In this document: in pieces, positions 10,437-32,758 of the stretch | How the letters are laid out: every line of letters begins with the position of its first letter | How positions within the stretch are numbered: the first letter of the stretch is position 1 | Assembly: GCA_009691405.1 (NCBI GenBank) | Contig: SICN01000011.1 | Location: forward strand, 1-33,437 | DNA from: Candidatus Peribacteria bacterium | GTDB taxonomy: Bacteria > Patescibacteriota > Gracilibacteria > Peribacterales > Peribacteraceae | Reading direction: 5' to 3' | Length of the DNA stretch: 33,437 bases | Notes under the pieces: model-generated | The model's database searches: none | What the model saw: only the letters and a program-made list of their open reading frames with translations | What the model was told of the DNA's origin: nothing | Program-made: the position numbers and the translations under genes

Positions 10437-10514
<78 letters not shown>

Positions 10515-11756: not shown

Positions 11757-11833
11757 TGGTGGGCGAGGGTGGAGTTGAACCACCGACCGCAGGTTTATAA
11801 GTCCTGAGCTCTAACCAACTGAGCTACTCGCCC
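11757..11833 (-). tRNA. tRNA-Ile (UAU)
   Basis: 77 bases with encoded CCA. The acceptor GGGCGAG pairs with CTCGCCC, with discriminator A. D arm GCTC AGTTGGTTA GAGC. Anticodon loop CTTATAA with anticodon TAT (11797-11799), reading AUA. The anticodon stem is CAGGA/ACCTG with an A31-A39 mismatch. T arm GGTGG TTCAACT CCACC is normal. TATACT at 11842-11847 predicts a transcription start only about 2 bases before the mature 5' end. Most bacteria read AUA with a CAU tRNA modified by TilS, so an encoded UAU anticodon is notable. Confidence 0.9.
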
Positions 11834-18058: not shown

Positions 18059-19066
18059 ATGAACATCGCAATCAACGGCTTCGGCCGTATCGGAAGACAA
18101 GTCCTTCGGATCATTCTCGAGAAGCATCCGGATCTCAATGTTGTACTCATCAACGATCTCACGGACGGCGAAACACTCGCGCATCTGTTTGAATTCGATT
18201 CGACGTACGGGCATTACGACTGTGGGACAGCTTGCTACAAAGACGGCATACTCTCAACGAAGCACGGAAAGATCCGAACTACGGCAAGCAAAGATCCGGC
18301 AACGCTTCCGCACAAAGAACTGAAGGTCGATGTCGTGCTCGAGTGCACAGGTTTTTTTACGAAGCGAGAGGACGCTGCACTCCACCTAAAAGCCGGAGCG
18401 AAGAAAGTAATAGTTTCCGCTCCCTGCAAGGACAAAGCCGACGCAACGCTCTGCATCGGGGTGAATCACACGACGTATGACAGCAAGACCATGCACGTCA
18501 TCAGCAATGCCTCGTGCACGACAAACTGCCTCGCTCCGATGGCGATGGTGCTGGATCAATCCTTTGGCATCGAGCATGGACTCATGAATACGATTCACAG
18601 TTACACGAATGATCAAAACTTGCTCGATCTCCCTCACAAAGATCTGCGTCGCGCACGCGCTGCAGCCGTAAACATCGTCCCATCGAGTACGGGAGCTGCA
18701 AAGGCTATTGGAGAAGTTTTGCCGTCACTGAAGGGCAAACTGCATGGCATTTCGCTTCGTGTACCGACACCGACCGGAAGTATCACGGATCTCACGGTTG
18801 TCGTGAAGAAAGCAACCACGATCGAAGAAGTGAATGCTGCATTCAAGAAGGCCGAAGCGGGTTCGATGAAAGGCATTCTCGGCGTTGAGGATCGTCCTCT
18901 GGTTCTCAAAGATTTCGTCGGAGACAACAGAAGCTGCATCATCGACTCGGCTTTGACACAAGTTATTGGAGGAACGTTAGTGAAGACGTTTGGGTGGTAT
19001 GACAACGAGTGGGGCTACTCTAATCGTCTTGCGGAGCTTGCGCAGTTTGTGGGTTCAAGACTGTAG
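18059..19066 (+). CDS. gap: glyceraldehyde-3-phosphate dehydrogenase, type I
   Basis: 335 residues, standard length. NAD site INGFGRIGRQVLR and VVLINDLTD. The catalytic Cys is in SNASCTTNCLAP at about residue 153. His is in HSYTNDQNLLD, and the phosphate site in RRARAAAVNIVPSSTGAAKA. KVKTFGWYDNEWGYSNR ends the protein. It converts G3P to 1,3-bisphosphoglycerate in glycolysis. The last 47 bases overlap the 3' end of the opposite gene. A TAAGAT box (18025-18030) 22 bases before a possible start is weak, so it may be read through from nfo. Confidence 0.96.
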   Translation: MNIAINGFGRIGRQVLRIILEKHPDLNVVLINDLTDGETLAHLFEFDSTYGHYDCGTACYKDGILSTKHGKIRTTASKDPATLPHKELKVDVVLECTGFFTKREDAALHLKAGAKKVIVSAPCKDKADATLCIGVNHTTYDSKTMHVISNASCTTNCLAPMAMVLDQSFGIEHGLMNTIHSYTNDQNLLDLPHKDLRRARAAAVNIVPSSTGAAKAIGEVLPSLKGKLHGISLRVPTPTGSITDLTVVVKKATTIEEVNAAFKKAEAGSMKGILGVEDRPLVLKDFVGDNRSCIIDSALTQVIGGTLVKTFGWYDNEWGYSNRLAELAQFVGSRL

Positions 19067-20144
19067 CTGAAATGCCGCGTTTCAGTCTCGCGTTGAAATC
19101 AGGATCTGCGAGGAGATGGATTTGAGCAAGAAGGCGTTGAAACGGAAGCTGCAGGCTCCCTGCTATTGCAGAGATGCTTGCTGGTTTTGCATTCTCCTTT
19201 TTTTGATGTCGTATTTTATCCTTCTCAACTTCTTGTTCTATTCTTTGCTCATACGCATCTTCAATTTCTTTGATTCTTAAACCAACGGATTCCATATTTT
19301 CCACGCATGTATCGATGATGGTGCCCAAGTTATCAAAAAACAATTGCCTTGTCTCCGGATTGCTCGTCATTGACTTTACGGCTTGCTCGATCCCTCCTTC
19401 TGACAGAAATCTTTGCTGCATCCATTTGTACTGATCATCCAAACCTTCACAGTTCCTTCCGCACAGCGCGCTGACCACTGCATCTGTTCCTATGTTTGCG
19501 GCGTACTTCAGTTCGATCGGTCCTTTGCCGCTTTGGAAACGCGCAAGGCTTTTCCTCTGCATCATTCTTTGGATTTCTCTGATGAGTGAGGGCAGCGCAC
19601 GCTCATGGATCTCGAGTGCTACGCATTCGCCAAGACAGGATTCGACCATGGCCGCAGTCTCCGGTTCATCTTTCAATTTTCTGATGATGTCCTCGAACCA
19701 GTGTTCCGTATTAGAAATTGTTGCAAGCGGTGATGCTCTTGCCTCGCGTACTTTTTTTAAAATTCTTAATCCAGAATCCATGGTATCATTTCTCATCGAC
19801 CAATGAAGTATGAATGTCGGAAAGCGCTCTCTTGCTTTACGGTCGAGAAATGCCGGCATTGCCTCTTTTAGTGGTTTTCCGATCAATCCATTTGCAGTCT
19901 CTCCAAACAGCTGCATCATTCTTCCGATCGTGAGTGGAGAGAGAAACGTTGGGATCATTCTTTCGCTTGCCATAGACAACACGGTTTGAGCACCCGTCTG
20001 CATACCGACGGAGAGGGCTTCGAGCGCAGGCAGTCGAAGAGCTGGTGACAAAACCGTCGTCTTTAGGAAGTCTCTGCGCTTCATCTGCGAATGCGTTGCT
20101 TCATCATTTGTGTCTTCCCGATGTTCCTCTGCAATTTCATTCAT
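19020..20144 (-). CDS. protein of unknown function with twin-arginine-like signal
   Basis: 374 residues. An acidic N-terminus of 20 residues precedes KRRDFLKTTVLSPALRLPAL, a good S/T-R-R-x-F-L-K Tat motif; the following hydrophobic stretch is short and contains Arg, so export is not certain. The rest is predicted helical, with many Met, Arg and Glu and two cysteine clusters (ESCLGECVALE, SALCGRNCEGL). CxxxC and CxxxxC could bind metal or a cofactor. A coiled-coil tract (IKEIEDAYEQRIEQEVEKDK) lies near 285-315. No family recognised. Its last 47 bases are antisense to gap. It is transcribed from the symmetric promoter at 20154-20201 with a leader of about 23 nt. Confidence 0.75.
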   Translation of the reverse strand: MNEIAEEHREDTNDEATHSQMKRRDFLKTTVLSPALRLPALEALSVGMQTGAQTVLSMASERMIPTFLSPLTIGRMMQLFGETANGLIGKPLKEAMPAFLDRKARERFPTFILHWSMRNDTMDSGLRILKKVREARASPLATISNTEHWFEDIIRKLKDEPETAAMVESCLGECVALEIHERALPSLIREIQRMMQRKSLARFQSGKGPIELKYAANIGTDAVVSALCGRNCEGLDDQYKWMQQRFLSEGGIEQAVKSMTSNPETRQLFFDNLGTIIDTCVENMESVGLRIKEIEDAYEQRIEQEVEKDKIRHQKKENAKPASISAIAGSLQLPFQRLLAQIHLLADPDFNARLKRGISATVLNPQTAQAPQDD

Positions 20145-20153
20145 GAAAGTGAG

Positions 20154-20201
20154 TTGACAAAAAACTATTTATGATTATAATCCCCGCAACTTTTCTGTCA
20201 A
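20154..20201. promoter_or_regulatory. symmetric bidirectional promoter
   Basis: Plus strand: TTGACA 20154-20159, 16 bp, TATAAT 20176-20181. Minus strand: TTGACA (TGTCAA at 20196-20201), 16 bp, TATAAT at 20174-20179. The two -10 boxes overlap in the palindrome GATTATAATC, and the whole 48 bases are symmetric about 20177.5. Predicted starts are at about 20188 (+) and 20167 (-). All four hexamers are perfect consensus. Confidence 0.85.
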
Positions 20202-20246
20202 CTTCTGCTCTTCTTTATAACTCCCACACTGCTAAATTTACCGGAT

Positions 20247-20504
20247 ATGTTTCATCTCGGAATAGATCGTGATGTCTTACTGTCAGTGAAAAGCGGGCAT
20301 GAAGTCACATTTCATGATGGCTCAGGAAGACGCTTGTCGGGACTTGTCACAAAAATTGATAGTGTTCACCGCGGGATCTGGGAGCTTTTCACTTTTGTCC
20401 TAAATGATTTGAAAATCAATGACAAAGAACCACCGTTTACCACCTCGAAACGTGCAAACATAACACTTCGCATTTCTCGCGAGAAAGCAGCAGATGTAGC
20501 CTAA
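20247..20504 (+). CDS. small protein, not recognised
   Basis: 85 residues, soluble, one domain. It alternates short strands: FHLGIDRDVLLSVKSGHEVTFHDGSGRRLSGLVTKIDSV, then WELFTFVLNDLKINDKEPPF and ANITLRISREKA. This suggests a small beta barrel. No Cys. It is driven by the plus side of the symmetric promoter with a leader of about 59 nt that holds no Shine-Dalgarno sequence. dnaK ends 15 bases beyond, on the other strand. Confidence 0.6.
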   Translation: MFHLGIDRDVLLSVKSGHEVTFHDGSGRRLSGLVTKIDSVHRGIWELFTFVLNDLKINDKEPPFTTSKRANITLRISREKAADVA

Positions 20505-23860: not shown

Positions 23861-23936
23861 GGGGCTATAGCTCAGCTGATAGAGGGCTACATTCGCATTG
23901 TAGAGGTCGAGGGTTTAAATCCCTTCAGCTCCACCA
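23861..23936 (+). tRNA. tRNA-Ala (CGC), atypical
   Basis: 76 bases with encoded CCA. The acceptor GGGGCTA/CAGCTCC gives the G3-U70 pair that identifies Ala tRNAs. Anticodon CGC (23894-23896) sits in the perfect stem CTACA/TGTAG. Oddities: the D loop reads AGCTGATA, so G18 is followed by A19; the T loop is TTTAAAT, so position 56 is U. The near-universal G19-C56 pair thus becomes A19-U56. Pairs 10-25 (G-G) and 7-66 (A-C) are mismatched. It may be a functional divergent tRNA for GCG, or a decaying one. Confidence 0.88.
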
Positions 23937-28515: not shown

Positions 28516-28590
28516 GGCCCGGTAGCTCATTGGTAGAGCGCTGCCCTGAAGAGGCAGGCGTAGGCAGTTCGATTCTGCCCTGGGCCACCA
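28516..28590 (+). tRNA. tRNA-Phe (GAA)
   Basis: 75 bases with encoded CCA. Acceptor GGCCCGG/CTGGGCC with one G-U pair, discriminator A. D arm GCTCATTGGTAGAGC. Anticodon GAA (28548-28550) in stem CTGCC/GGCAG with loop CTGAAGA. T arm GGCAG TTCGATT CTGCC. All canonical tertiary positions are present. Confidence 0.95.
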
Positions 28591-28595
28591 CACTA

Positions 28596-30161
28596 CTATT
28601 TGAGTCGGTTCAATTTTTGCAATGCCTCAGTATCCTTCGGATTCAGTCGCACTGCTTCGAGGAAAGCCGACCTCGCTTCTTTTCTTTTTCCCATTTGTTC
28701 GAAACATACTCCGAGGTTGAAGTAGATATCGCTTACGATCGGATTCAAGACCGCTGCTTCGCTGAGTACCTCGATCGCTTGCTGCCACTTCTTTTCGTTT
28801 ATCAGGCGTGCTCCGAGATTGTTGAGTGCGATCGCTTCGTTGATTTTCATATCGGTCGTGTCATGAATGCCTCGCGCAAGACGAAACTCGCTTGCCGCAG
28901 TTTCAAACTCGCTTCGCTCGAGCGCATCGAGTCCCAGATTGCTGTGAGCGACATACGAATTCGGGTAGAGAGAAAGAACTGATGCATAGAGCGTTCGATT
29001 GTTTCTCCACGTCAGACTACGCCGGTTCGTTTGGAATCCGAATGTGGTGATGAGGAGGAGCCCCGTAAGCGTGAGTGCTGTCTTCTGCTTCTGCGTAATT
29101 TTCTCTCGGAGCAAGCGCAGTAGATACGCCATGATCAAGAGAAGACCGATCGACGGAACGTACGCGTATCGGTCCGATGCGACGTAGAGATCGGTGCCGC
29201 GCTCGATATTCGGAAGCGATGGAACGAGCATCACGAGGAAGATGCCGATCCCAGTTGCTATCATCTTCGTTGCGCGGCGATTGATGAAGACGAGTAAGCC
29301 CAAGAGCACGAGTGCGACGATTGGCATGAAAATGCCGGGATCCATCACACTGATCGTTTTGGAGTACGGATAGAGAAGTGACAGGTCGTGAGGAAGCAGA
29401 AATTGCGTCAGCGTGAATAGGATCGTCTTCGGAGCCATCAATGCTTTCTGCATGATCGTCGTATGAGCGATGGCTGCAGATTTTCCAATGAAGGCAATGA
29501 TGATGAAGACGAATGAAAGCATTGCGTACGGAATCTTGTCGATGATGTTTCTCTGCGTGAGTGTACCAAGGCGTTGCCAATCGATGAGAAGCAGCGCAAG
29601 TGGCAGAAATACGATGCTGACTTTTGACAGAAGACCGAGCGCGAACAGTGTGATTGACAACGTCTTCCATCGCCTGCCGACATTCCCCTGCTTTGTCGCA
29701 GGCAGATACGTCGCAATCGAAGCGAAGCAGAAAAATCCTGAGAGAAGATCCTTGCGAGCCGAAGCCCAGAGAACGGCTTCTGCATTCTGCGGGTGCACGG
29801 CGAACAAAAGACCGCAGAAGACTGCGAACCAAGTGTTCTTCAGAAGCAAGAAGATGATCCATGCGACGAGGAGGGAGCTGAGCGTGTGTAGGAGCAGGTT
29901 GTCGAGGTGAACGAGTGCAGGATTCAGTCCTGCAATGTCATATTCCGCCTGATAACTGAGAAGCGTGAGAGGGATATAGAGCTCAGGATCGTAGCTTGTG
30001 AATGCCTTGCGCATGTTTTCGACGCTCAGTCCTCTGACAATCGGATTTTCGAGAATCAGAGGCTTGTCATCGAGATTGATGAAATCGTTTCGAAGTGACT
30101 GACCGTACACGACCAATGTCATGAGCAGAAAGCCAACCGGAATGAGCCAGAGTTTTCTCAT
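28596..30161 (-). CDS. TMTC-like membrane glycosyltransferase with C-terminal TPRs (paralogue 1)
   Basis: 521 residues. A GT-C type membrane region of about 10 spans occupies 1-375. The first loop carries the acidic pair FINLDDKPLILENPIV, then YDPELYIPLTLLSYQ, HLDNLLLHTLSSLLVAW, and FAVHPQNAEAVLWASARKDLL. These are hallmarks of the TMTC/DUF1736 group, whose animal members O-mannosylate cadherins. TPR units follow from about 400 (SYVAHSNLGLDALERSEFETA, EAIALNNLGARLINEKKWQQA, SDIYFNLGVCFEQMGKRKEA). It probably moves a sugar from a lipid carrier to a surface acceptor. TAAGAT at 30168-30173 sets transcription start on the ATG. Paralogue 2 lies one gene upstream. Confidence 0.82.
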   Translation of the reverse strand: MRKLWLIPVGFLLMTLVVYGQSLRNDFINLDDKPLILENPIVRGLSVENMRKAFTSYDPELYIPLTLLSYQAEYDIAGLNPALVHLDNLLLHTLSSLLVAWIIFLLLKNTWFAVFCGLLFAVHPQNAEAVLWASARKDLLSGFFCFASIATYLPATKQGNVGRRWKTLSITLFALGLLSKVSIVFLPLALLLIDWQRLGTLTQRNIIDKIPYAMLSFVFIIIAFIGKSAAIAHTTIMQKALMAPKTILFTLTQFLLPHDLSLLYPYSKTISVMDPGIFMPIVALVLLGLLVFINRRATKMIATGIGIFLVMLVPSLPNIERGTDLYVASDRYAYVPSIGLLLIMAYLLRLLREKITQKQKTALTLTGLLLITTFGFQTNRRSLTWRNNRTLYASVLSLYPNSYVAHSNLGLDALERSEFETAASEFRLARGIHDTTDMKINEAIALNNLGARLINEKKWQQAIEVLSEAAVLNPIVSDIYFNLGVCFEQMGKRKEARSAFLEAVRLNPKDTEALQKLNRLK

Positions 30162-30859: not shown

Positions 30860-32758
30860 CTAGCGGACGATGCCGTCTTCTTTCATCCTGTACAGAAGTT
30901 CGAGGGCCGTCGGATTGCTCTGATCGATCTGAAGTGCTTTCTTGAGAGTTTGAGCGGCTTCATCAATCGCTTTCCTCTCGTAGAGTAGCACCGCAAGGGT
31001 GGAGAGGGAATCTGCATCATTTGCGTTCACTGCGATCACTTTCCGCAGAAATAGTTCGCTCTCGTCATTTTGTCCGAGCATCTTAAGAGCAAGTGCAAGA
31101 TTGTACGAAGACTCGACGAAATCTGGCTTCAATTCGATCGCCTTTCGCAGAATCACTTCGGCGTTGCTCCAATCGTTGAGCTGCAGATACACCCCGCCGA
31201 GATTATTGTAAGCATTCAGGTACTGCGGATTCGTTTCGATTGTTTTTCTGTACCAGGAAACCGCTTCGACAAGCTTTCCCTGCTTTTGTTCGATTTGACC
31301 CAGACCGTATGCACTGTCTGCGATCTCGGGATCCGAGAGCATGACCGCTCTGTAGATTGTCTCTGCTTCGGCGAAGTTTTTCTTGCGCACGAATGCAGCC
31401 GCAAGGTTCACTTTCGTTTTTGCATCGGAGTGCAATTCCAGAGCACGGCGGAATGATGCGATTGCCGCATCGATCTCTCCCGAAGTCAGCTGCTCCATTC
31501 CAAGATTGTTGTGCGCGGCTCTCGAATTCGGATAGTGTGCAAGTACGTTCTCGTAGAGAGTTGTGCTGTTTTGCCAGATCGCAGTCTGTTGTTGTGTGAG
31601 TGCGCCAAACGTAAGCAAAGCGCAGATTATTGCCGCAGCGACGACCATTCTACGCGAAGACACGGATCGCATGTTCGTCGCACTTCGAAGCCAGAAGTCA
31701 GCAGATGTCCCGATGAGCACAAGAAGTCCGACCATCGGAATGTATGCGTAGCGATCGGATGCGAAATACACATCTCCCCCCTTCGCAAAATTCAGAAATG
31801 TCGGCAGCAACGTCGCAAGGAAGAAGAGCATGCCGAAGGATGCCATGCGATTTCTATTCCTGAGGTAGTAAGCCGCACCGAGAAAGAGGATGACGAGTAC
31901 GAGAGGTATCGCAAAATCGGACGACAGGATCGTGATCGGATCCATGTAAGGATAGGTGACCGAAAGATCCGTTGGCCAGAGAAACTTTTGGACATAGAAC
32001 ACTGTGCTCTTGCAAGCCATCAGAATTTTTTGCAGCAAGGTCGATGAAACAAGATTCTCCGTTTTTCCGAAAATACCGATGATGCCGAAGATCACTGCAA
32101 AGAGCACGTACGGAATTTTCTCAAGCAATCTTTTTTTGCTCATTCCCCGCCCTTGCACATCATCGATAAGCAGAAGAACGACAGGCAGTGTCACCACCAT
32201 GACTTTCGATAGAAGTCCAAGTACAAAAAAGAACACTGACATCCAAAAAAGTTTGCGGCTCTCTTTCATCGTCGCGTACAGATAACTCACGATTGATGAA
32301 AAGAAAAAGAACGTGGAGAGAACGTCTTTTCTCGCAGACGCCCAAAGCACTGCTTCGCTGCCGAGGGGATGAATGGAAAAAAGCAATCCAAGACCGATGG
32401 CGAGCCATCCATTCTCGAGAAGCAAGAAGAGAAACCACGCAACCAGCATTGCATTCGCCGTATGAAAGAGAAGATCAGTCAGATGGTACGCAAACGGGTT
32501 GAGTCCGCCGATTGCGTGACTGATCTGATACGAGACGAATGTGAGAGGAATGTAGAGTTCGGGATCGTACGAAGTGAATGCAGCTTTGATTGTGTCAGCA
32601 TTCATCGCGACAACGATCGGGTTATCGGTGATCAATCCATTGTCATCAAGCGTTACAAATTGGTTCGAGAGAGAAGATCCATACGCAGTAAAACTCACTG
32701 AGAGAAAGAGCAGCGCCACAAGACAGAGCCGTGAAGGAGACGGAAGAGGGGGAAGCAC
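30860..32758 (-). CDS. TMTC-like membrane glycosyltransferase with C-terminal TPRs (paralogue 2)
   Basis: 632 residues, GTG start at 32758. It has the same plan as paralogue 1: FVTLDDNGLITDNPIV, YDPELYIPLTFVSYQ, HLTDLLFHTANAMLVAW, LFSIHPLGSEAVLWASARKDVL, and FASDRYAYIPMVGLL. The TPR tail is longer (about six units against three): SRAAHNNLGMEQLTSGEIDAA, LNAYNNLGGVYLQLNDWSNA, FVESSYNLALALKMLGQNDE, and others. The membrane halves of the two proteins match closely in motif order, so they are products of a duplication with different TPR lengths. TAGGAT at 32766-32771 gives a start one base before the GTG. Confidence 0.82.
   Translation of the reverse strand: MLPPLPSPSRLCLVALLFLSVSFTAYGSSLSNQFVTLDDNGLITDNPIVVAMNADTIKAAFTSYDPELYIPLTFVSYQISHAIGGLNPFAYHLTDLLFHTANAMLVAWFLFLLLENGWLAIGLGLLFSIHPLGSEAVLWASARKDVLSTFFFFSSIVSYLYATMKESRKLFWMSVFFFVLGLLSKVMVVTLPVVLLLIDDVQGRGMSKKRLLEKIPYVLFAVIFGIIGIFGKTENLVSSTLLQKILMACKSTVFYVQKFLWPTDLSVTYPYMDPITILSSDFAIPLVLVILFLGAAYYLRNRNRMASFGMLFFLATLLPTFLNFAKGGDVYFASDRYAYIPMVGLLVLIGTSADFWLRSATNMRSVSSRRMVVAAAIICALLTFGALTQQQTAIWQNSTTLYENVLAHYPNSRAAHNNLGMEQLTSGEIDAAIASFRRALELHSDAKTKVNLAAAFVRKKNFAEAETIYRAVMLSDPEIADSAYGLGQIEQKQGKLVEAVSWYRKTIETNPQYLNAYNNLGGVYLQLNDWSNAEVILRKAIELKPDFVESSYNLALALKMLGQNDESELFLRKVIAVNANDADSLSTLAVLLYERKAIDEAAQTLKKALQIDQSNPTALELLYRMKEDGIVR

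Follow-up and report, generated by a model that had tools for sequence, protein, structure and literature searches.

A probable bidirectional promoter with overlapping consensus -10 hexamers in a genome of Candidatus Peribacteria

Promoters with a shared -10 region and the geometry of the dyad

Bacterial promoters in which a single -10 region serves both strands form an already described class, whose founding paper is reportedly that of Warman et al. (2021, Nat Microbiol 6:746). On chromosomes they are commonly, but not obligatorily, flanked by divergent genes, and their -35 elements are usually poorly conserved. The distance between their divergent transcription starts is 7-25 bp, with 18 bp as the commonest value (Middlemiss et al. 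2023, PMC10268837), and 19% of the RNAs detected in E. coli arise from such promoters (Warman et al. 2026, PMC12825309). In E. coli, five bidirectional promoters that were tested fired too little at basal level for the two directions to compete, and strong activation of one direction made the other fall; promoters matching all consensus elements were considered possibly exempt from the usual coupling of activity to occupancy (PMC12825309).

The window analysed here is a stretch of 33,437 nucleotides from contig SICN01000011.1 of Candidatus Peribacteria bacterium (assembly GCA_009691405.1, a genome of 1.01 Mb). It contains four tRNA genes recognised by Rfam (10441-10514, 11760-11833, 23861-23933 and 28516-28587) and, on the - strand, two large membrane ORFs near each other (28596-30161 and 30860-32758), which by eye look similar, bear TPR-like C-terminal repeats and are possibly paralogues. 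A sequence-only reading had proposed a perfectly symmetric bidirectional promoter in this window. The elements of the site are as follows.

20154 to 20159, + strand: -35 hexamer TTGACA, read directly from the sequence
20176 to 20181, + strand: -10 hexamer TATAAT, read directly; start predicted from -10 geometry at about A20188
20196 to 20201, - strand: -35 hexamer TTGACA (TGTCAA on the forward strand), read directly
20174 to 20179, - strand: -10 hexamer TATAAT, read directly; start predicted from -10 geometry at about 20168-20166
20173 to 20182, both strands: perfect 10-bp palindrome GATTATAATC with both overlapping -10 hexamers inside, read directly
20182 to 20187, both strands: CCCCGC block, which forms the + discriminator, lies within the - spacer and breaks the symmetry

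The arrangement TTGACA - GATTATAATC - TGTCAA, with 16-bp spacers on both strands and its centre at exactly 20177.5, was confirmed base for base. TTGACA-N16-TATAAT is matched at 12 of 12 positions on each strand (+ 20154-20181, - 20201-20174), so that either strand carries the -35 and -10 hexamers of a sigma-70-type promoter at a spacing within 16-18 bp, and inside the palindrome the opposite -10 hexamers share 4 bp. Like the members of the described class, the site has one symmetric -10 region for both strands and lies between divergent ORFs; its predicted starts would be about 21 bp apart, within the 7-25 bp range, this distance following from the 4-bp overlap and differing from the commonest 18 bp. 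Unlike in that class, where the -35 is usually poor, all four hexamers are perfect, the -35 as well as the -10. Symmetric promoters had been said to be known in bacteria, and since the shared -10 class is already described, the site would be an added member with unusually perfect hexamers.

The symmetry is perfect only as far as the hexamers are concerned, whereas the spacers and discriminators differ by virtue of the CCCCGC block. The outer arms AGTTGACAAAAAA (20152-20164) and TTTTCTGTCAACT (20191-20203) are complementary at 12 of 13 positions, which carries the symmetry slightly beyond the hexamers, yet the 54-bp palindrome is only 70% complementary overall because the bases between arms and core are mostly asymmetric. 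Such extended arms could suit a dyad acting mainly as an operator, in which a dimeric or looping regulator would occupy the TTGACA/TGTCAA half-sites and control both genes, and several of the 109 perfect dyads found in other genomes (see below) overlap TGACAC/GTGTCA-like palindromes or adjoin TetR- or LacI-type regulators. However, the symmetry past the hexamers is modest, the half-sites, 36 bp from each other, fall precisely on the -35 hexamers, no gene for a regulator was recognised next to the dyad on one side or the other, and a second copy of it was not found in the genome; we regard this explanation as improbable. No RNA family was found by Rfam at the site, and a search for an unusual fold in the + leader returned none.

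Occurrence of the dyad and of its hexamers

Chance origin of the dyad is negligible. Its expected number, calculated from base composition, is about 7.5e-6 per genome, and the probability of a second perfect promoter in the shared position, given the first, is about 9e-5. In its own genome the dyad is unique, the next-best site having 3 mismatches, and none was found in the 73 other genomes of the family (74 were searched together with its own).

Genome-wide counts were obtained by pattern searches, with the reversed pattern as a control. Perfect TTGACA-N16-18-TATAAT sites occur 10 times in the genome versus 0 times for the control, which indicates that these hexamers mark real promoters there; very probably they act as promoters in this organism. 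At five of the eight other perfect promoters a sizeable ORF starts 0-152 nt downstream of the predicted transcription start. When up to one mismatch was allowed, the 16-bp spacer gave 22 matches versus 2 for the control and the 17-bp spacer 15 versus 1, hence 16 bp is an ordinary spacer in this genome, and a commoner one than 17 bp.

The pattern TTGACA-N14-16-ATTATAAT-N14-16-TGTCAA was surveyed in 85,462 genomes of the GTDB collection, where 109 stretches matched; 5 viral contigs matched as well. Divergent ORFs of at least 100 aa lie on both sides of 74 of these 109 dyads, and the spacers are 17/17 in 72 of the 109 and 16/16 in only 2. An ORF of the FabD cluster flanks 51 of the dyads, and in at least 41 of these FabH lies across the dyad from it, the assignment being based on Pfam matches of one representative pair. 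These fabD/fabH dyads (L016, L034, L042, L064 and others) come from Butyricicoccus, Agathobaculum and other Clostridia, and their FabD side mostly reads TTGACAAA(G/C)T. Perfect dyads are thus rare but recurrent, and conserved across species in one group. The fabD/fabH dyad is perhaps a conserved bidirectional promoter for fatty-acid synthesis, possibly with an operator, and no publication on it was found in a brief literature search. The site in the window resembles it in presenting TTGACA...ATTATAAT...TGTCAA between two divergent ORFs, but it is unique and has 16-bp spacers, whereas the fabD/fabH dyad is kept across dozens of species, mostly with 17-bp spacers.

A separate group among the surveyed dyads (L014, L018, L080, L082, L103; L044, L118) consists of symmetric promoters overlapping longer palindromes (TGACAC...GTGTCA), L044 being a perfect 50-bp palindrome. 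Some of them adjoin ORFs for an aldo-keto reductase and an amidohydrolase, and the members of this group are likely to be promoter-operators.

The flanking ORFs and their conservation in the genus

Two divergent ORFs point away from the dyad that lies between them.

19020 to 20144, - strand: ORF of 374 aa with RRDFLK near the N-terminus; it begins about 23 nt from the predicted - start site
20247 to 20504, + strand: orphan ORF of 85 aa; it begins about 59 nt from the predicted + start site

The 374-aa protein had no family match above cut-off in Pfam or NCBIfam (weak matches to DUF445 and RNase P, far below the cut-offs, were discarded), and no relatives of it turned up among the GTDB genome contigs or among viral contigs; within the family, its profile matched only one homologue, in the congeneric genome G056. 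There is doubt about the earlier designation of this protein as Tat-like: neither its own genome (G000, an assembly about 94% complete) nor the two congeners G056 and G057 yielded a TatC, although 11 of 14 control genomes did. The Pfam TAT_signal model gave E 0.23, below cut-off, against the protein with its RRDFLK motif. A Tat-exported product should combine a twin-arginine signal with a Tat translocase encoded in the genome, and this combination was not observed for the 374-aa product.

As regards the small 85-residue protein of the sequence-only reading, the ORF is present but the gene is unproven. No relative was found in the 73 other family genomes, Pfam, NCBIfam, PHROGs or PDB. Its coding score, 0.092 per codon, falls between the lowest value for real genes (0.138) and the 95th percentile of shadow frames (0.069), and such an intermediate signal in an orphan means that the + transcript may be noncoding. 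The frame is nevertheless the sole open one of six in its stretch and has the best score of the six; its end lies 15 bp short of the dnaK stop, dnaK running convergently on the opposite strand. Structure models of the 374-aa and 85-aa proteins were too poor for use (mean pLDDT 44 and 39). A mobile or phage origin was also considered and rejected, neither protein having a match in PHROGs.

In all three genomes of the genus the stretch is flanked by the GAPDH gene and dnaK. In G056 the 374-aa protein has a homologue of 407 aa in the same place (23% over 206 aa, E 6e-12), yet the dyad was not found there at up to 3 mismatches, and where the 85-aa ORF sits there is a + ORF of 95 aa. BLAST revealed no similarity between these two small ORFs, and the 26% obtained by forced alignment is not meaningful. 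In G057, whose GAPDH is 97% identical, neither the 374-aa nor the 85-aa gene was found; their place is taken by a - ORF of 110 aa that has a one-way promoter (10/12). The comparison indicates that the gene pair and the dyad are lineage-specific, so that neither the conservation of the dyad in relatives nor the lasting pairing of the two genes, both suggested earlier as checks, was borne out. The arrangement thought to speak against a shared site, namely two separated promoters in relatives, was not found in exactly that form either.

The ORFs between the GAPDH gene and dnaK (19020-20504 in the window, L004 in G056, L011 in G057) differ among all three genomes, and this space constitutes a small variable site between conserved genes.

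Direction of transcription and exclusion of polymerases

The dyad is probably a sigma-70-type bidirectional core promoter with overlapping consensus -10 hexamers, and it is very likely that the site is a genuine promoter of the two-way kind already known. The palindromic 10-bp core would provide consensus -10 hexamers for both strands, each with its own consensus -35 hexamer 16 bp away, and RNA polymerase would bind in one orientation at a time. Transcription would start near 20188 on the + strand, giving a transcript over the 85-aa ORF, and near 20167 on the - strand, giving a leadered mRNA for the 374-aa protein. The mutual exclusion deduced earlier from the overlapping -10 boxes does follow from the geometry, two polymerases at once being sterically impossible. 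A divergent promoter with overlapping -10 elements is therefore still the best reading, but the alternate firing postulated with it goes beyond the evidence, basal firing having been too low at the five E. coli promoters. As binding in one direction bars the other, the ratio of outputs would represent a random choice set by the asymmetric parts, and not an ordered alternation.

GC-rich discriminators destabilise open complexes. Due to the CCCCGC block at 20182-20187, the + discriminator of the dyad is 100% GC, versus 0-67% in the eight other perfect promoters of the genome, and the - spacer is 50% GC, versus 6-25%; the + spacer is AT-rich, similarly to those of the other perfect promoters. The discriminator should put the + direction at a disadvantage by making its open complexes less stable, and the - direction may be hampered by its GC-rich spacer. 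Equal output from both directions should not be assumed.

Against the bidirectional reading stand the absence of the dyad from G056, the sole relative with a homologue of the 374-aa protein, the GC content of the - spacer, unlike that of the other perfect promoters, and the lack of relatives of the 85-aa ORF together with its intermediate coding score. It is possible, though we do not think it probable, that only one direction works, most likely the - direction serving the 374-aa gene, while the other half is weak or yields a short noncoding RNA, the 85-aa ORF being no gene. In characterised cases divergent transcription often yields noncoding RNA (PMC10268837), and the wholly GC discriminator lies on the + side, where the orphan ORF gave no confident model and has a coding signal at the borderline; a syntenic homologue was found for the 374-aa gene alone. 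On the other hand, the + half combines a perfect -35 hexamer with the usual spacing of this genome and an AT-rich spacer like those of other perfect promoters, and the 85-aa frame, alone open and best scoring, stops just before the convergent end of dnaK.

A separate problem is whether exclusion itself was selected, as a switch that would set opposite levels of two functionally linked proteins. Overlapping promoters do physically exclude each other, and near-consensus strength is the condition under which competition is expected (PMC12825309). Neither the dyad nor the gene pairing is kept in the two congeners, however, no functional link between the 374-aa and 85-aa genes is known, and basal competition was absent at the five natural E. 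coli bidirectional promoters (PMC12825309), which makes such a switch unlikely. More doubtful still is a regulator-free, random two-state switch, in which single cells would express either the 374-aa or the 85-aa protein from a maximal-consensus exclusive promoter. A conserved switch formed by the two genes is possible but unsupported.

The interest of the bidirectional reading lies in the perfect hexamers of both halves. The five natural promoters tested in E. coli have imperfect elements, and their basal firing is too weak for polymerases to compete (PMC12825309). With its perfect hexamers on both sides, the site in the window could readily show whether two strong halves give rise to competition, and how direction depends on discriminator and spacer at equal hexamers. 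The fabD/fabH dyads provide a conserved set for the same question of competition and direction.
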